A stretch of DNA of 64,000 nt, from assembly GCF_019351435.1 (NCBI RefSeq), contig NZ_JAHWYN010000005.1, forward strand, positions 62,001-126,000, read 5' to 3'. Of the stretch, positions 28,130 to 62,990 are shown one piece after another. Each line of letters begins with the position of its first letter. Position 1 is the stretch's first letter. Origin of the DNA: Flavobacterium taihuense. GTDB taxonomy: Bacteria; Bacteroidota; Bacteroidia; Flavobacteriales; Flavobacteriaceae. Under the pieces are notes generated by a model, which saw nothing but the letters and a program-made list of their open reading frames with translations, was not told where the DNA came from and did not search any database. Both the position numbers and the translations under genes were made by a program.

Positions 28130-28241
28130 AAAATATTTTTTATTCCTTTTAAATCAAAAAAGTGACTTCTTAAGAATCTTGGGGAAACTCAATTTTCAGA
28201 AAGGAATCATTTTTTTGTTTTATAAAATAGCCCAAAATAAT

Positions 28242-29165
28242 ATGTCTAAAAACGAAAATCAATTTCTTATCTATCTCGCTTTTGCGGCTATTTTTATTAT
28301 TTGGGGAAGTACTTATTTCTTTATCTTTTTGGGACTTGAAACCATTCCGCCATTTATGTTGATGGGAATGCGATTTGTAATTGCGGGTTTACTTTTACTG
28401 ATTTTAATAAAAGCGCAAGGAAATTTAAAGAAACCAAGTAAGGAAGCCATACTCAAAAATTCAATTTACGGAACTCTTTTACTTGTTGGAGGAACAGGGT
28501 CAGTCATGTGGGCTGAGCAATTTGTTCCTTCTGGAATTGCTTCAATAGTAGTTTGCAGTTTGCCTTTTTGGTTCTTGATTTTGGATTATCCAAAGTGGAA
28601 AGAAAACTTTTCAAATGTTAGTTCGCTTTTGGGATTGATTATTGGTTTTGCTGGGGTTATAATTCTTTTTGATGTCAATGAATCTGTTTTTTCAGACCAT
28701 TTTGTTTTGGGGGTAATAGTAATTATTGCCGGAGGAATATCTTGGGCATTGGGTTCTTTGTTTTCTAGATACTACCCTACTGATTTACCTACCTTAATGA
28801 ATGTCGCTTTACAAATGATAAGTGCAGGCTTGTTTTGTTTAATACTATCATATTTAACGAAAGAGACTGAAGGTTTTGTTTTTAGTAATATATCTTTAGC
28901 TTCTTGGTTGAGTTTGGGATATCTTATCGTTTTTGGAATACTCGCTTTTGTTGCTTATGTATGGCTAATAACCAAGCGTTCCTTGATACAAGTTGGGACT
29001 TACGTATATGTAAACCCAGTTATAGCAGTTTTCTTAGGTTGGTTATTTGCCAAAGAAACCATAAGCACAAAACAGATACTTGCCTTAATAGTGATTCTAA
29101 TAGGTGTGGTTTTAATCAACTGGGTTGGTTATCGAAAGACTTTATTCGAAAAAAGTAAAGCCTAA
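28242..29165 (+). CDS. EamA/DMT-family transporter
   Basis: 307 residues from the ATG at 28242 (an in-frame TTG at 28179 would add an unlikely N-terminus). Ten predicted membrane segments in two EamA repeats; the first starts FAAIFIIWGSTYFFIFLGLE and the second WALGSLFSRYYP. Inner-membrane drug/metabolite exporter, substrate unknown. A displaced copy of the mlaF 3' end begins directly after its stop codon. Confidence 0.9.
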   Translation: MSKNENQFLIYLAFAAIFIIWGSTYFFIFLGLETIPPFMLMGMRFVIAGLLLLILIKAQGNLKKPSKEAILKNSIYGTLLLVGGTGSVMWAEQFVPSGIASIVVCSLPFWFLILDYPKWKENFSNVSSLLGLIIGFAGVIILFDVNESVFSDHFVLGVIVIIAGGISWALGSLFSRYYPTDLPTLMNVALQMISAGLFCLILSYLTKETEGFVFSNISLASWLSLGYLIVFGILAFVAYVWLITKRSLIQVGTYVYVNPVIAVFLGWLFAKETISTKQILALIVILIGVVLINWVGYRKTLFEKSKA

Positions 29166-29166
29166 T

Positions 29167-29285
29167 TTATCCTTTTAAATAGGCTTCTCTTACTTTCTTG
29201 AATAATTCAGAAGAATATACAAATTCAACAATAGCTTCATTTTCGGTAAGGAAAATGTCTTCTTTGTTTCTTTCCCAAGATTTTG
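29167..29285 (-). pseudogene. Orphan 3' fragment of mlaF
   Basis: On the minus strand this segment encodes KSW-ER-NKEDIFLTENEAIVEFV and onward to REAYLKG-stop. The last 31 residues are identical to the C-terminus of MlaF encoded at 34436-35197. The DNA differs at about ten of some 114 positions, and those in the identical part are silent. Upstream of this point similarity ends. So this is a truncated, independently diverged copy of the gene's 3' end, 5.2 kb from the intact gene. Confidence 0.88.
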
Positions 29286-29449
29286 TTCTTTTAAAGGATA
29301 GAATGTTTTTTTAAATTTTACTACATAATTCCTTGAGTGGTTACTCATAGTTTATTTGCAATTCAAATTATACCATAAATGAATTATTGTTGAGTCTAAT
29401 GCAACTATTTAATTAACTATAATTTAACATGAAATAGCTTAAAAATAAT

Positions 29450-29457
29450 TATTTTTG
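29450..29457 (+). promoter_or_regulatory. Candidate promoter of the lipoprotein gene at 29482
   Basis: TATTTTTG 24 bp before the chosen ATG. The rest of 29286-29449 holds no gene that I can support. Confidence 0.4.
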
Positions 29458-29481
29458 AGAGAAATGTCTCTTAATTATAAT

Positions 29482-29892
29482 ATGAAAAAACAACTACTTC
29501 TAATTTTATTATTCTTAAGTATAAGTTGTGAGCCATTAGAATTTTATGGAGATACCTTTTATACCGTAAAAGGAAAGATAACAGATGCAAATGACAAACC
29601 TGTTTCAAATCTTAATTTAAAGGTTTATGCTCGAATAATTATTTATGATAATTCTTTAGGAAAAGATGAAGATGAGGTAGTTATGGCCTATGGAAAAACA
29701 AATCAAAATGGGGATTTTCAAATTACTTTCCCAAAATCAAACACAGTAAATTTTTTACTCATAGATAACGACTATAAAATAATTGATTCAATACAAACAA
29801 AATCATACGAATTAAATGCGGCAAAATTAGACTTTAATAAAATGTATGATTATACGTTTGATTTACAAAGTATTAAAGTTATTAGAGAATGA
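29482..29892 (+). CDS. Small lipoprotein with carboxypeptidase-regulatory-like domain
   Basis: 136 residues from the ATG at 29482, chosen because the lipoprotein signal (KKQLLLILLFLSISC, lipobox ending at Cys) starts there. The rest is one beta-sandwich: YTVKGKITDANDKPVSNLNLKVY and GKTNQNGDFQITFP, the pattern of CarboxypepD_reg-like domains. Probably an outer-membrane or periplasmic binding or structural accessory. It overlaps the next gene by 4 bp (ATGA), so the two are a translationally coupled pair. Confidence 0.7.
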   Translation: MKKQLLLILLFLSISCEPLEFYGDTFYTVKGKITDANDKPVSNLNLKVYARIIIYDNSLGKDEDEVVMAYGKTNQNGDFQITFPKSNTVNFLLIDNDYKIIDSIQTKSYELNAAKLDFNKMYDYTFDLQSIKVIRE

Positions 29893-30509
29893 AAAAATCA
29901 CTTGTCTTCTCTTTTTTATTTCTTTCCAGTTTCATACATTCTCAAAACGCAGAAACACATTTCGATAAATTAGTATCTTTTGGGTTTTCAATAGGATTTA
30001 AAACCTATATGGGGAATAATTTTATTGCAAAAACATATAATGATAGCTATCCAGTAGCTACGGGCAGTAGTGTTAATGTTTGCAAAAATTTTGGTGCAGG
30101 ATTCTATTTCAAAAAAAATAGTGCCTCACTACAAACAACTCAATATGTAGGAAACAGTGTTAAGGGAACCTTTATAGAATGGGGTTTTTATTCTTGTTAC
30201 TATGCTCAACTTAATAATAAATGGCTTTTTGTGCCAAAAATTGGAATAGCGACTTTTAATCTAAAAAATGAATTATATCCTTATTTGTATAGCTCTAAAA
30301 AAAAGTACTACACTACTGGAACGACCTATTTTATTGCACCCGAAATCAATTATTTTCTCCATAATAATATAAGTCTATATTCGAGTATAGGATACGGCAT
30401 TATTGATTTGTCAAAAGTAAGAGCAAGTTCTTCATTAGATATAAACTACACTTCTTCAAATCAACTTAATCTTGAAGTAGGAATACGATTTTGGTTTGGC
30501 AAAAGGTAA
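29889..30509 (+). CDS. Predicted outer-membrane beta-barrel protein, unknown function
   Basis: 206 residues with signal peptide (SLVFSFLFLSSFIHSQ). Alternating hydrophobic pattern and a terminal aromatic strand (LNLEVGIRFWFGKR) suggest an eight-stranded porin-like barrel. No family recognised. Coupled to the lipoprotein gene upstream by a 4-bp overlap. Confidence 0.6.
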   Translation: MKKSLVFSFLFLSSFIHSQNAETHFDKLVSFGFSIGFKTYMGNNFIAKTYNDSYPVATGSSVNVCKNFGAGFYFKKNSASLQTTQYVGNSVKGTFIEWGFYSCYYAQLNNKWLFVPKIGIATFNLKNELYPYLYSSKKKYYTTGTTYFIAPEINYFLHNNISLYSSIGYGIIDLSKVRASSSLDINYTSSNQLNLEVGIRFWFGKR

Positions 30510-30524
30510 TAATTATACTGCAAC

Positions 30525-30532
30525 TATTTTTG
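30525..30532 (+). promoter_or_regulatory. Candidate promoter of the lipoprotein gene at 30577
   Basis: TATTTTTG, 44 bp before the ATG. Confidence 0.35.
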
Positions 30533-30576
30533 AACGTAAAATAATAAAGATGAATAACACCAAATAAACAATAATT

Positions 30577-31104
30577 ATGAAAAAACTATTTTTTTTATTC
30601 GCAACAATTACATTACTAATCTCTTGTAACAAAGACGATGACAAGCCCATGAACCCAATTGACCAACTACCACCTGCGACACAAATTGGTGCGAATACTG
30701 CTGGATGTTTGGTAAATGGGGAAGCTCTTTTACCAAAAGGAACTGGAATAATATTGAATTGTTTCTACCAAGATGGATTGAATTTTGGGTTGTCGATTAC
30801 GGAAAACAAAAATAATATTCAAAAAAGCATTGGAATTGCCAGTTTAAATCAAAAACTAGAAGTAGGTCAGACATATCAACTTACAGAATATAAGTCTAAT
30901 ACAAAATATGGTAGTTATATTATTTATTACTCTGATTTTAGTGAAGACAAATATCTAACTACATTATTGGTAAATGGAGAACTAAAAATCACTAATCATA
31001 ATTTTGACAAAGCTATAATTTCTGGTACATTTTGGTTTGATGCGATAAACTCTGAGGGGAAAGCTGTTAAGATAAGAGAAGGGCGCTTTGACATGGAATA
31101 TTAA
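30577..31104 (+). CDS. Hypothetical lipoprotein
   Basis: 175 residues. Lipoprotein signal FLFATITLLISC followed by the acidic NKDDDKP stretch that in Bacteroidota can act as a surface lipoprotein export signal. The remainder is a predicted beta-rich domain with no family I recognise. It is part of the four-gene block between the two mlaF 3' ends. Confidence 0.6.
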   Translation: MKKLFFLFATITLLISCNKDDDKPMNPIDQLPPATQIGANTAGCLVNGEALLPKGTGIILNCFYQDGLNFGLSITENKNNIQKSIGIASLNQKLEVGQTYQLTEYKSNTKYGSYIIYYSDFSEDKYLTTLLVNGELKITNHNFDKAIISGTFWFDAINSEGKAVKIREGRFDMEY

Positions 31105-31203
31105 TGCAATATAAATCTATAAAAAAGAGAACTATCAGCTAGGCTGGTAGTTTTAAATTTAAAAAAACAATCACTTAACTACCATTTAATTAGAACCAAA
31201 ACT

Positions 31204-34200
31204 ATGAAAAAAAATGTATTATTTCTTTTTTCTCTCTTGTTTTCTGTATTTACAAATGCACAACAAGATATCAACACTACTTTTGCGACACAAATGAATA
31301 CTGTGTTTGGATCGTTGGACAAAACCAAAGTACCCCACGGTATCCTGCTCGATTATGGTATGGAATTTACCAATGTGCCTGCTTACAACGGTACACTTAC
31401 GGATAGTACGTATTCAGACAAATCTAGTTTAAAACAAATCTACAATACTTTGCTTTCTAGTAGAGTAAGGGAATTGAGTACCGCATGGATAACCCCTACA
31501 GAATATGACACTAGATGGAATAGTAATAGAACTGCTGGTGTGATTGCTTTAAGTGGTTTGTATTTTAAATATTCACAGTTTGCGAGTAATGCCCTTACTG
31601 CCAATAAAATTACATTGTCTAGCAATAAATTTTATGACAAGGTAATCAGCGGTATGTGGCAAAATCCGTACGAAGAGTTACAGACTTTTGCAATGGCAGC
31701 TCCTATAAAACAATATGACGAATTGAGTATGCAGGTTAAAATCCCATCAAATATATTTATTTCTAATTATCAGAACCTTATCGCAAGCATACAAATAGAT
31801 TTTGATAACGGTCAAGGATATGTAACTGTCCCTTACAATCAAAATATTGCAGTTAGTTATACATCGTATGGTTTGAAAATTTGGAAGTACAAACTCAACC
31901 TGACCAATGGCACCTCTTTATACAATCAATCTAGAATGAAGATTGGAAAAAATTCAACTAATGGACAAATAGGACTTCCAGTCCCTCCACCCTGTCAAAC
32001 CTGTAGAATCTCTGCAACTGAAAGTCCGGTAAGCATAACAGCTACAATTCCTTATTTAGGAGGATTGGGAACTGTAAAACTTACGATTGATTATGCTGGA
32101 GACCCTAATCAGGGACTCAAAAAACCGCTAATTGTAGCCGAAGGATTTGACCTTGGTGTAGTATTGAATCCTGAAAAAGCGTATGGAAACAATACATATG
32201 CTACTTTTAGGAATACACTTTTTAATTCATTTAGTTCAGAATTAAAAAATCTAATTTATGAAGACAATAAGCAATACGACATTGTTTATGTAGATTGGGA
32301 CAATGGCGTAGATTATATGCAACGCAATGCTTATGCGCTTGAGGCCGTTATAAATTATGTGAATGCTAGAAAAGTTTTGAGTGGAAGTACTACGAAAAAT
32401 GTAATTTTGGGACAAAGTATGGGTGGTGTTATTGCTCGTTACGCCCTTGCAGATATGGAGCAAAGAGGTGTGGATCATAAAACGAGTTTATTTATCTCGC
32501 ATGATGCACCACAACAAGGAGCTAATATTCCGATTTCTTTTCAGTATATGTTTCGTCATCTTACTAGACAGTATGTAAAATCTCCTTTATTATTGTATGG
32601 AGGAGAAACGTTTTTGCCTATGCATACAGATTCCCAACCCGTTTCTTCGTATTTATCCATTCTAGATGCTCCAGCTTCTAAACAATTGATAGCAAATTTT
32701 GTAAATCCAAGTTACACAATAGACAATTCAGAAAACACTTCTTTCTACAATGAACTAAAAGGTAAAGGACTTGCTAATAGCGGAGGTTACCCTGTACAAT
32801 GCAGGAATATAGCTATCAGTAATGGTAGTGAATGCGGTACAACCCAAACTTTTAACCCAGGAGACGATTTGGTCAATTTTCAATTGAATAAAGGGCTATC
32901 CTTTTGGGGGGATTTATTAAGTTTGGTTTATAATCCTTTAGGTGGTGCTATAGGTGGCGATTACATTGATAGAGATTTGTATGGTGTAGCGGTTTTAGGA
33001 GCTTTTCCTGGACATTCAAAATATAATGTTGATTTTCAGGCAAAATCATTATATGACAGTTCTGGAAACCAAATATATAAAGGTCGTGTATCTTATACCA
33101 AGAAAATTCTTTGGGCTCTAAATATCACAATTGACATTACTAATGTAACGAAAAATCAACCATCGGCTACTTTACCTTTTGATACTTATGGAGGAGGTTA
33201 TTTTGATACAAAAACTCTTGCGGGGACAGTTAGCAGTCCAAATCTTGTTATAAGAGATCATTTTGGTTTTATTCCAACAGCAAGTGCTTTGGATATTGGA
33301 AAAAGAAACGTTCCCTTAATTGATGTGGACTACAAAAAGTCCTATGTTGGAGCAATACCACTTGTTGCCCCCAAGAATAGCCCGTTTGCCAATTTTACCA
33401 CAGATTTTGATAAGGCAAACCCAAATGCACACAACAAACAGCACATTTCATTTGACACTAGGAACGGAAAATGGTTAGCATCAGAACTAAATGCTTTGAG
33501 CAATGCTAGTTTAATCCCTGAAAAAACGGATTGTTCCTATATCTGTTCAGATTCTCAAATCACAGGAAACGCTGTATTATGTAGTAGTGGCACATATTCT
33601 GTTCCTAGTGGTGCTACATGTAGCTGGACTATCGCAGAAGGTGCAAATTTGGTAACACTTTCGGGAAATGGAACAAATCCAGTTGTATTAAATCCCTTAT
33701 CAGCATCAGCAAGTGGTAAAGTTATTTTAAGTTCTTATTTTGGAAATAGTAATTGTGGGTATAAAACTTTGACTAAATCTATTTTTGTTGGTAAACCTAG
33801 CATTGAAATAAAATTAACATCTGATAGTAATTATGCTACTATAGATTTGGTCAGTGCCAATAATGTTGATATTACACAACAAGGAATTACATCAACAACG
33901 TGGACTAAGATAGCATCAACCAATAGTGGTAATGGTGGGGGAAGTGGTCTTAGTGGTTTTGGGAATGGACCAAATTTTAATTGGACAATAACTTTAGTAA
34001 TTACTGCAACAAATGCATGTGGAACTACTTCTATAACAAGAGTTGTTACCTGTGCTCCACCTGTTCCTTGTGATAATGCCTATAATTTGGTTGCAAAATC
34101 ATCAAATGGGTATGTTGCAAATAAAATAATTGACCCTTGTGAAGGAATTACAGGTCCCCAGAAAACAAGTATTCAAACTACAAATGTTTCTGATAAAGAA

Positions 34201-34353
34201 ATAACTTCGGCAAAATTATATGATATTTATGGTGCGGAAATTAGAAACTATAAGACAAATGATTATTTTATGGATGGAATAAAGAATGGTGTTTATATTC
34301 TAAAAGTTCAAATAAAGGATGTCATGCTTACAAAAAAAATAATTATAAATTAA
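31204..34353 (+). CDS. Large T9SS-exported protein with alpha/beta-hydrolase domain
   Basis: 1049 residues. Signal peptide (NVLFLFSLLFSVFTNAQ); a long N-terminal region; an alpha/beta-hydrolase segment with strand VAEGFD, then nucleophile elbow G-x-S-x-G in LGQSMGGVIARYALADM near residue 404; Ig/PKD-like beta-domains with paired cysteines (about 775-980); and a C-terminal T9SS type A sorting domain (LYDIYGAEIRNY and GVYILKVQIKD...KKIIIN). It is therefore exported through the type IX system and probably anchored or released at the surface, acting as an esterase or lipase. Substrate unknown. It is the largest gene of the putative insertion and ends at a strong terminator. Confidence 0.85.
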   Translation: MKKNVLFLFSLLFSVFTNAQQDINTTFATQMNTVFGSLDKTKVPHGILLDYGMEFTNVPAYNGTLTDSTYSDKSSLKQIYNTLLSSRVRELSTAWITPTEYDTRWNSNRTAGVIALSGLYFKYSQFASNALTANKITLSSNKFYDKVISGMWQNPYEELQTFAMAAPIKQYDELSMQVKIPSNIFISNYQNLIASIQIDFDNGQGYVTVPYNQNIAVSYTSYGLKIWKYKLNLTNGTSLYNQSRMKIGKNSTNGQIGLPVPPPCQTCRISATESPVSITATIPYLGGLGTVKLTIDYAGDPNQGLKKPLIVAEGFDLGVVLNPEKAYGNNTYATFRNTLFNSFSSELKNLIYEDNKQYDIVYVDWDNGVDYMQRNAYALEAVINYVNARKVLSGSTTKNVILGQSMGGVIARYALADMEQRGVDHKTSLFISHDAPQQGANIPISFQYMFRHLTRQYVKSPLLLYGGETFLPMHTDSQPVSSYLSILDAPASKQLIANFVNPSYTIDNSENTSFYNELKGKGLANSGGYPVQCRNIAISNGSECGTTQTFNPGDDLVNFQLNKGLSFWGDLLSLVYNPLGGAIGGDYIDRDLYGVAVLGAFPGHSKYNVDFQAKSLYDSSGNQIYKGRVSYTKKILWALNITIDITNVTKNQPSATLPFDTYGGGYFDTKTLAGTVSSPNLVIRDHFGFIPTASALDIGKRNVPLIDVDYKKSYVGAIPLVAPKNSPFANFTTDFDKANPNAHNKQHISFDTRNGKWLASELNALSNASLIPEKTDCSYICSDSQITGNAVLCSSGTYSVPSGATCSWTIAEGANLVTLSGNGTNPVVLNPLSASASGKVILSSYFGNSNCGYKTLTKSIFVGKPSIEIKLTSDSNYATIDLVSANNVDITQQGITSTTWTKIASTNSGNGGGSGLSGFGNGPNFNWTITLVITATNACGTTSITRVVTCAPPVPCDNAYNLVAKSSNGYVANKIIDPCEGITGPQKTSIQTTNVSDKEITSAKLYDIYGAEIRNYKTNDYFMDGIKNGVYILKVQIKDVMLTKKIIIN

Positions 34354-34378
34354 ATCTCAAAAATTGATTATATTGTTT

Positions 34379-34413
34379 AAAATGGTTTTGAGTTTTCTCA
34401 AAACCATTTTTAT
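34379..34413. terminator. Terminator between the hydrolase gene and mlaF
   Basis: Twelve-base perfect stem AATGGTTTTGAG/CTCAAAACCATT with loop TTTT (34381-34408), followed by TTTTAT on the plus strand. It sits between convergent genes and may serve both. Confidence 0.85.
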
Positions 34414-34435
34414 TTCAAACATAAAAGTTAAAAAC

Positions 34436-35197
34436 CTACCCTTTCAAATACGCTTCTCTTACTTTCTTGAATAATTCAGAAGAATAAACAAATTCAACAA
34501 TAGCTTCATTTTCGGTAAGGAAAATATCTTCTTTGGTTCCTTCCCAGGCTTTAACGCCATTTTTTAGAAATAAAATTTTATCGCCAATTTCCATTACAGA
34601 GTTCATATCATGGGTGTTTACGACCGTTGTGATATTGTATTCTTCTGTGATTTCCCGGATTAGGTTGTCAATTAAAATTGCGGTATTGGGATCCAATCCT
34701 GAGTTGGGTTCGTCGCAAAATAAATATTTTGGATTATTTACAATGGCACGGGCAATAGCGACCCTTTTTTGCATTCCTCCTGAAATCTCAGAAGGTAATT
34801 TTTTGTGTGCGCCCACTAGGTTTACTCTTTCTAAAACAAAATCAACACGTTTTTGAATTTTAGCATTGCTGTCATTAGTAAACATTTTTAGAGGGAAAGC
34901 CACGTTCTCGGCAACAGTCATACTGTCAAAAAGAGCACTTCCTTGAAAAAGCATACCAATTTCGGTGCGGATTTCTCTTTTTTCATCGGCGCTTAAATCA
35001 GAGTAAATACGTCCGTCAAAAGAAATGGTCCCTACTTCTGGAGTGTGAATTCCCAATAATGATTTTAATAAAACGGTTTTTCCAGATCCACTTTGACCGA
35101 TAATCAAATTGGTTTTTCCTGCTTCAAAAACACTGGAAACTCCTTTTAGAATTTTGACACCGCCAAATGATTTTTCTATGTTTTTTATTTCTATCAT
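34436..35197 (-). CDS. mlaF: ABC transporter ATPase, MlaF type
   Basis: 253 residues from the ATG at 35197 (an in-frame upstream extension to 35257 would run well into the permease gene). Walker A GQSGSGKT near 38, signature SGGMQKR, Walker B YLFCDEPNSGLDP and switch His in VVNTHDM are all present. It powers phospholipid movement between the membranes with MlaE and an MCE-type protein, which is not in the window. Its ATG overlaps the stop of the permease gene (ATGA). The last 31 codons are duplicated as an orphan fragment at 29167. Confidence 0.92.
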   Translation of the reverse strand: MIEIKNIEKSFGGVKILKGVSSVFEAGKTNLIIGQSGSGKTVLLKSLLGIHTPEVGTISFDGRIYSDLSADEKREIRTEIGMLFQGSALFDSMTVAENVAFPLKMFTNDSNAKIQKRVDFVLERVNLVGAHKKLPSEISGGMQKRVAIARAIVNNPKYLFCDEPNSGLDPNTAILIDNLIREITEEYNITTVVNTHDMNSVMEIGDKILFLKNGVKAWEGTKEDIFLTENEAIVEFVYSSELFKKVREAYLKG

Positions 35198-40312: not shown

Positions 40313-40424
40313 CGGGTTTTGGGACTAAATTAAACCCATTATTCGGATTTACCAAAACATCCCAAATACAAAACCAACTTTCCGTTTAGCCAATTGCCCA
40401 AATCCGTTGTAGTAGCTGTTAGCA
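40313..40424 (-). repeat. attC-like palindrome, copy B (truncated), downstream of the HEPN gene
   Basis: Minus strand reads TAACAGCTACTACAACGG, then the shared core with TTTTGTATTTGGGATG and GGTTTAATTTAGTCCC, to CCCAAAACCCG, where similarity to copy A ends and the palindromic repeat at 40309 begins. It follows the HEPN gene stop by 12 bp. The distal arm that would pair with the first arm is lost. Confidence 0.75.
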
Positions 40425-41071: not shown

Positions 41072-41205
41072 GCTAACGTTCTGGCACTACAGCGGGTTTG
41101 GGACTAAATTAAGCCCTATTTTCGGATTTGCCAAATCATCCCAAATACAAAACCAACTTTCCATTTAGCCTATTGCCCAAATCCGTTGTAGTGGCTGTTA
41201 TGGGC
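41072..41205 (-). repeat. attC-like palindrome, copy A (complete)
   Basis: On the minus strand the element runs from TAAC (41200-41197) through CACTACAACGGATTTGGG to its imperfect complement CCCAAACCCGCTGTAGTG (16 of 18 positions pair) and ends ACGTTAGCAG. From TAAC to GTTA is 127 bp. Start TAAC and end CGTTA, the arm pairing and the length all match the plan of Vibrio-type integron attC sites. The core contains an inner palindrome GGATTTGGCAAATCC-like. It lies between the stop of the phosphatase gene (8 bp) and the start of the HEPN gene. Confidence 0.8.
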
Positions 41206-41213
41206 TGTGTTTT

Positions 41214-61737: not shown

Positions 61738-62261
61738 ATTTAGTTTTTACGAAAGTAAGACTGGTATGTTATTTCAATGTGTTCTTAGTATTATTTGTAT
61801 ATAAAAATACAGTGTTCAAGTTTATTCCAGCATTGTTTTAACTACAAATTTTTAAGGAATAATATTTTTGCAAGCGCAACTCTCAACTTTGGGGAGTAAT
61901 AAGGGGTGGTTTGTAGTAGCACTGGTGTTATATAGGATGTACTGCTCCTGCTTTGTGTGGGAGAAATACTCCCTTTTTTGGAGAGTGTAATGGATACTTT
62001 TATATAGGTGAAGGAGGAATAATGGGGCGTAGTAGCCCTGTTTCCAGTATTATTAATAGTGGCTTTACAGAAATGATCTAGCAATATCAATTGCATTGAA
62101 ATAACAATAAATTCATTTATATTTGAAGTAAAAAACAAGGCACTGTCACATAAAGTTACTTCGATTAAATGGGGTATGTGCGATTTTATCGGAAATATAT
62201 ACAAGTTGTATGTCACTTTAGGAAACAACGGTATCAACAAAATCATTAAAAAAAACATAAA
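61738..62261. other. Non-coding region with degenerate repeats
   Basis: Two related stretches of the type ACTCyC..TTTGGrGAGT..GGTGg (near 61880-61910 and 61967-62015) can form short hairpins. A minus-strand frame (61842-62258) has no signal, domain or composition typical of a protein, and I reject it. No promoter was recognised for the gene at 62262. Confidence 0.35.
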
Positions 62262-62858: not shown

Positions 62859-62990
62859 CAACAGTTAATACAACAGATTTGGGTAATTTGCTTAATAGAA
62901 ATTTGGTTTTGTATTTGGGCGATTTGGCAAATCCGAAAACAGGGCTTAATTTAGTGTTAAATTGCTTGTGGTAAATATGTTGTATTTAGT
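62859..62990 (+). repeat. attC-like palindrome, copy C, downstream of the hydrolase gene
   Basis: Shares the core TTTTGTATTTGGGCG, GATTTGGCAAATCCG and AGGGCTTAATTTAG with copies A and B. Its outer arms are different in sequence yet still pair: AATACAACA (62867-62875) with TGTTGTATT (62978-62986). Conserved folding with changed arm sequence is what is expected of a site read as single-stranded DNA or RNA. Confidence 0.78.

Follow-up and report, generated by a model that had tools for sequence, protein, structure and literature searches.

In Campbell-type insertion-duplication, a circle carrying a gene fragment leaves one complete and one truncated copy of the gene around the insert, and the prophages e14 and phage 21 integrate at the 3' end of the protein-coding gene icd. 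Homology-facilitated illegitimate recombination has been reported from three naturally competent species and from conjugation in E. coli (PMC3240628), and it was proposed as the way in which effector-immunity modules insert into the type VI secretion system (T6SS) clusters of Vibrio cholerae (PMC5361080). Here we describe a four-gene insertion behind the gene mlaF of Flavobacterium taihuense, bounded by two copies of the mlaF 3' end. The window, i.e. the whole stretch of DNA that was analysed, comprises 64,000 nucleotides (positions 62,001 to 126,000 of contig NZ_JAHWYN010000005.1, assembly GCF_019351435.1) of a 4.7 Mb genome in 73 contigs. Searched with mlaF, the four best-matching named relatives all belong to Flavobacterium. 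In it, an EamA-family transporter gene (28239-29165, plus strand) and mlaF (34436-35197, minus strand) enclose four plus-strand genes. On balance, we consider it likely that donor DNA with an mlaF end of its own brought these genes in by one-sided homologous recombination, in the form of either an insertion-duplication or a homology-facilitated illegitimate recombination.

As in Campbell-type insertion-duplication, complete and truncated mlaF copies are present as direct repeats, but no circle or vector part was found here. The locus resembles the icd prophages in that the gene end appears to have been replaced by one that differs mostly silently, while the native one lies displaced; it differs from them in that no integrase was recognised in the insert, the repeat length is variable and the targets differ. 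With the V. cholerae T6SS clusters, as presented in the account cited above, it shares a conserved anchor, a non-homologous joint at the other end, and old sequence displaced behind the module (in V. cholerae, immunity genes and the 3' end of an effector). Unlike in that account, an unrelated housekeeping gene provides the anchor with its 3' end, the same gene's native end is what was displaced, and the cargo is a lipase putatively of the type IX secretion system (T9SS) type with a DUF6252 lipoprotein. The geometry would fit homology-facilitated illegitimate recombination or a single crossover with a circle.

Results

Empty site and native gene end

To find the empty site, we searched 398 genus genomes with the EamA gene plus the orphan mlaF end behind it as the query. 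In five genomes (L173-L177, 87-91 percent) the match covers the EamA gene together with the mlaF end and goes no further than the orphan. The EamA-mlaF junction is empty in all eight relatives examined that have EamA beside mlaF, namely these five nearest ones and L178-L180: no more than about 12 bp separate the aligned ends of the two genes, without an insert. Therefore, the insertion is derived in the lineage of the window. Compared with the five nearest relatives, the left alignment stops at 29283-29284 and the right one starts at 34437, and the two overlap in the relatives by 116-117 bp.

The orphan (29167-29284, minus strand) starts one base past the EamA stop, as the earlier note had placed it, and the sequence downstream of it is the EamA spacer of the five nearest relatives. 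The intact mlaF ends with TAG and continues into unrelated sequence toward the lipase gene; the stop is TAA in the five nearest relatives, and among nine aligned loci L180 alone shares TAG. Judged from these flanks, the orphan is the native mlaF end and the 3' flank of the intact gene is foreign, which answers the question of the native end raised in the earlier note. The mirror image of this arrangement would place the homology on the EamA side; orphan and EamA would then be donor DNA, and the intact mlaF end would be native. L173, the nearest relative, is as close to the left arm (88.0 percent) as to the right (88.2 percent), so the arms cannot tell which side is foreign. The foreign flank of the intact gene and the native junction beside the orphan argue against the mirror image, as does the existence of a natural arrangement in which a lipase gene directly adjoins mlaF (G207), and we regard it as very unlikely.

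An independent search recovered the direct repeat at 29168-29283 and 34437-34552. In codon register it measures 117 bp (29167-29284 versus 34436-34552), with 107 identical bases and 10 differences (8.5 percent). The earlier note had reported a duplicated mlaF end with identical protein and about 9 percent DNA difference. The duplication and its divergence were confirmed, whereas the identity holds only in the last part: the final 32 residues and the stop are the same in both copies, with six silent codon changes (stop included), but the repeat extends six codons further upstream, three of which alter the protein, and a fourth protein-changing codon lies just outside the block. The whole-genome search at E 0.001 found the block at these two places, with no third copy. 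Beyond 29284, similarity to mlaF is at chance level (shuffled sequences score as high locally in 389 of 1000 cases and, anchored at the joint, in 17 of 150). A longer decayed mlaF copy upstream of the orphan was not accepted, since similarity past 29284 was no better than that of shuffles. One end of the insert thus carries homology, i.e. the repeat on both sides, while at the other end similarity to the five relatives is lost abruptly in a non-homologous joint, followed by a spacer to the cargo (29285-29475).

According to the proposed mechanism, donor DNA, linear or circular, with the lipase module beside a copy of the mlaF 3' end would have paired with the mlaF end of the recipient, and the crossover would have occurred in the shared block or just upstream of it. 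The recipient would retain a working mlaF with the module behind it, its end (34436-34552, minus strand) now wholly or partly derived from the insert. Its own mlaF end would be displaced to the far side and persist there as a 5'-truncated orphan by EamA. The far joint at 29284/29285 would be either illegitimate (non-homologous) or the start of the mlaF fragment on a donor circle. Arrival by recombination through the mlaF end, as the earlier note had it, agrees with this geometry; its further claim that the donor was a related strain could not be pinned down from the equally close arms.

Divergence of the two gene ends

One alternative is a simple duplication, either a long target duplication made with the insert or a local tandem duplication, with later decay of the orphan. 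The intact and the orphan block differ at 10 positions, the intact one from the four nearest relatives at 10-13, and the orphan from the same four at 11-13. The block tree allows the two copies as sisters (approximately unbiased (AU) test, p 0.20), and the AU test rejects no topology. The orphan has three protein-changing codons, mostly unique to it, and several of the differences found in the orphan alone resemble decay after insertion. Polarised by hand, four differences fall on the orphan side, four on the intact side, and two are unclear. With a neutral orphan, a constrained intact copy and equal age, about one intact-side change would be expected, but 4 to 5 were seen (Poisson 0.019 to 0.004), so the constrained copy changed about as much as the orphan. 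This gives modest support to the view that the intact mlaF end first diverged elsewhere. Duplication is also hard to reconcile with the parallel case G461 described below, where the repeats differ almost solely silently, unlike the decay of a useless copy. We consider duplication unlikely at the mlaF locus, although a separate donor is, judged by the tree, not provable from the 117-bp block alone.

The claim of the earlier note that the ends had evolved apart under selection before they were joined was not established here, given that the tree allows the sister topology and that the orphan has decay-like changes. Two points lean toward it, namely the excess of silent changes on the constrained copy (Poisson about 0.02 with hand polarisation) and the strongly silent pattern in G461. 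Separate evolution of the ends is therefore plausible here and well supported only in the parallel case. Within the block, the differences cluster toward both ends, and a 74-bp run of the 117 bp holds one difference (p 0.003 by random placement, with the run picked after seeing the data). In our reading, this pattern may reflect a crossover or a later conversion inside the mlaF block.

The same arrangement at other loci

A second mlaF end was looked for at 90 loci, and a firm copy of the coding sequence was present in two, the window and locus L065 of F. sandaracinum. In L065, a different, broken lipase (30 percent) and a DUF6252-type gene lie between mlaF and SprT. The native mlaF end, 42-57 bp long, sits by SprT with the native spacer, and the intact mlaF enters foreign DNA; in L064 and L068, mlaF and SprT are separated by 20 bp, without an insert. 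L065 is thus an independent insertion at the same mlaF gene end. L057 has a weak second mlaF match (65 percent, E 0.003) farther inside the gene.

Other cargo at this site, which the earlier note had proposed to look for, occurs in other species as various inserts, other lipase modules included. G207 (L187) has two DUF6252 genes followed by a lipase at the mlaF site without a coding orphan. Its lipase lies tail to tail with mlaF, so donor arrangements of the proposed kind exist. The cargo of the mlaF-SprT interval varies among L034, L044, L046, L051, L056, L058, L062, L071 and L072. The F. johnsoniae group has one small gene per locus there, whereas L072 has 9.2 kb in which we read three putative dynamin-type GTPases (Dynamin_N was matched three times in a set of 46 open reading frames). 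In F. johnsoniae-group loci L044, L046, L051, L056 and L058, a AATTCCAAATTCCAA-type terminator is present at both insert ends; we did not count these repeats as scars because dispersed terminators are likely there.

Two further cases concern unrelated targets. In G259/G314, the module lies between genes that we read as methyltransferase-like and M16-peptidase-like, and a terminator region of 67-76 bp flanks it on each side; G029 has one copy and no insert. Of 29 other loci that were fetched by their methyltransferase-like gene, 12 have the peptidase gene at most 250 bp away. The idea that every flanking repeat stems from dispersed terminators was rejected for G259/G314, where the search of the two genomes gave three weak matches besides the two flanking copies. 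In G314 (L182:4361-5757), two open reading frames that look transposase-like by eye break the upstream DUF6252 copy; its sister G259 is without them.

In G461 (L272), which belongs to another genus, several DUF6252 matches and a lipase are enclosed by two copies of the 3' part of a symporter-like gene. One symporter-like copy runs off the contig end, so that its full gene is not seen. The repeat is 274 bp long with 18 differences, and one of 17 changed codons alters the protein versus 74 percent if neutral (p 7e-9). As the copies differ almost only silently, both were under selection before they met, so that in G461 a gene end came with the insert. For a separate donor, the codon pattern makes G461 a stronger case than the mlaF locus. 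It also has a near-identical run of 119 of the 274 bp (p 0.004, again picked after seeing the data); such runs in both coding blocks, mlaF and G461, would fit crossover or conversion inside the repeat.

Frequency of flanking repeats

Of 398 genus genomes, 85 have a lipase match at E 1e-3 and 22 of these one below 1e-80; of 329 family genomes, 6 have a match at E 1e-60 (this genome is included in each of the three counts). For modules and controls we used a matched rule (600-bp flanks, E 1e-4) on 29 module loci including the window and L268 (G605), leaving out the tail-only relatives L207-L210. Flanking repeats were present in 5 of 28 independent lipase modules versus 8 of 712 gene-bounded control blocks (Fisher 6e-5). 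The five positives are the window, G259/G314 (L181 and L182, sisters counted once), G207 (L187), G461 (L272) and G479 (L274). Three of the eight control hits, L182 twice (one block) and L274, themselves span lipase modules, and L041 was hit twice (one block). Among modules with full flanks, 4 of 21 were positive (Fisher 2e-4; the flank is shortened in L183, L191, L193, L196, L200, L268 and L272), and 3 of 28 remained after the weak L187 and L274 were dropped (p 0.007). L065 was missed by the matched rule, as its broken lipase ends outside the block; it was positive in looser tests (27 loci without L268, flanks of 1.5-3 kb, E 0.01-0.001), in which alone a distant 67-percent repeat was seen in L191. 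The firm cases are the window, L065, L181/L182 and L272, and the weak ones L187 and L274. The scar is enriched at lipase modules, yet most modules have none.

Several observations weigh against the proposed entry by recombination with a separate donor. No donor with a closely matching module beside mlaF was found, and the nearest lipase homologues (69-73 percent, G259/G314) sit elsewhere than mlaF. By the matched rule, 23 of 28 modules lack a repeat (6 of those loci have a shortened flank), the repeat in G207 is a terminator motif recurring at this junction in its clade, and the block tree fails to separate the donor model from simple duplication. A plasmid or phage circle as the source was not supported: lipase matches were distant, in 9 plasmid records, all below 60 percent identity and in one case with a query coverage of 80 percent or more, and there were none in phages.

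Another explanation is site-specific integration with the recombinase acting in trans, the mlaF end being the attachment site and the module a passenger with its own gene end. The restored gene end with silent differences, the displaced native end and the two independent insertions at the same mlaF end would agree with it, an identical run of at least 35 bp in the block could hold a recombinase core, and such a route has to be considered because tyrosine recombinases elsewhere in the genome could act in trans. Against this, Pfam and NCBIfam searches recognised no integrase, excisionase or transposase in the four cargo genes. Nor did a phage integrase appear in the 25 Pfam families listed, out of 46, for 46 of 74 open reading frames of other inserts at or near the mlaF site. 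In addition, the repeats range from 42 to 274 bp at unrelated targets, and most modules have none. We hold this explanation to be improbable. A transposon is disfavoured by the repeat itself, which at 117 bp and 8.5 percent divergence is not a short exact target duplication. The same Pfam and NCBIfam searches recognised no replication or transfer gene in the cargo.

Genes of the locus

The EamA gene (PF00892, E 3e-37) is the native convergent neighbour of mlaF. The name mlaF is that of the earlier note; the gene product is a putative lipid-transport ATPase (ABC_tran, PF00005), and its protein is 94-97 percent identical to those of the five nearest relatives. The gene and its neighbour are hit by the MlaF and MlaE models, both below the model cut-offs. 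The foreign spacer between lipase and mlaF (34354-34435), in which we read an inverted repeat by eye, differs from the native mlaF-EamA spacer.

The four cargo genes reported earlier for 29482-34353 are present, all on the plus strand. Gene 1 (29482-29892) encodes a putative lipoprotein with a signal and lipobox-like start recognised by eye (TIGR04134, 25.7 bits, below the cut-off of 39.8). Gene 2 (29889-30509), without a Pfam or NCBIfam match, encodes what we read as a putative outer-membrane barrel-like protein. Weak relatives of gene 1 were found in 29 and of gene 2 in 5 other genomes of 199 searched. In three of them (G149, G160 and G093) the gene-2 relatives are near those of gene 1, so the cargo may consist of two modules. 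Gene 1 also has a weak relative at the F. johnsoniae-group mlaF site, in L056 (E 6e-8). Kinship of gene 2 with the barrel-like gene at that site was unsupported (hhalign probability about 1 percent).

Gene 3 (30577-31104) encodes a DUF6252 / Riean_0653-family lipoprotein (PF19765, E 7e-8; NF052634, 181 bits, cut-off 57). Gene 4 (31204-34353) encodes an LCAT-like lipase of 1049 aa (PF02450, 21.1 bits, cut-off 21) with a GQSMGG motif read by eye and a candidate T9SS-type C-terminal tail (TIGR04183, 22.7 bits, just under the cut-off of 23). DUF6252 relatives precede the lipase in nearly all modules examined, many of which have several copies. In Riemerella anatipestifer, haemolysis is greatly reduced in Riean_0653 mutants and restored by complementation, and the purified protein was reported to be no haemolysin (PMC7881567). 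These data would suit a partner of a secreted enzyme and an immunity protein equally well. The module probably encodes a T9SS-secreted lipase and a partner lipoprotein, for competition or degradation. It can be compared with the TANFOR polymorphic toxins of Bacteroidetes, described as T9SS-associated with linked immunity genes (PMC7073777), as another candidate Bacteroidetes toxin module that may be associated with the T9SS. No TANFOR match was among the NCBIfam matches of the cargo, and the words "lipase" and "lipoprotein" are absent from the main text of the TANFOR paper (PMC7073777).

Palindromes elsewhere in the genome

The window also contains an imperfect palindrome of about 130 bp at 40315-40421, 41072-41206 and 62860-62955 (minus strand), with further copies on contigs C17, C28, C31 and C35 (L277-L280). 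The genome has 40 or more of them (40 of 182 candidates scored). Four fetched stretches contain 39 copies, which within each stretch share one orientation, with zero to four small open reading frames between copies. They look like integron attC sites with gene-cassette arrays; the DNA fold has a z of -3.05, and no Rfam family reached its cut-off at the palindrome. Within the genome, the integron-integrase model TIGR02249 is matched best by a tyrosine recombinase in a 370-aa frame (C9:102769-103587, L281), although below the cut-off and with the middle of the model unmatched. A palindrome copy (C9:104291-104417) lies about 700 bp from this recombinase, which may drive the cassette arrays. In a single literature search, no paper was found that joins integron, attC, Flavobacterium, Bacteroidetes and cassette array.

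Discussion

Many small bacterial insertions are without visible mobility machinery, and their entry route is mostly guessed. In the locus studied here the scar is readable: a homologous gene end appears to have come in with the cargo, and the native one was displaced. We found no description of this insertion pattern in the literature titles and abstract openings covered, which exclude most subscription journals.

The lipase and DUF6252 modules could even be integrase-free cassettes of Flavobacteriaceae that carry a 3'-end piece of a host gene, the gene end serving as a portable address by which RecA-excised circles re-enter the same gene end elsewhere. We regard this extension of the proposed recombination route as doubtful.

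Recombination with homology at one end is a known route of gene acquisition, and it is of wider interest here because the scar recurs: with one cargo family at unrelated targets, and with two insertions in separate lineages that hit the same gene end. The similar scars left by some related modules hint at a recurring route of spread. If the modules are antagonistic, this would be a T9SS counterpart of the proposed exchange of T6SS effector modules.

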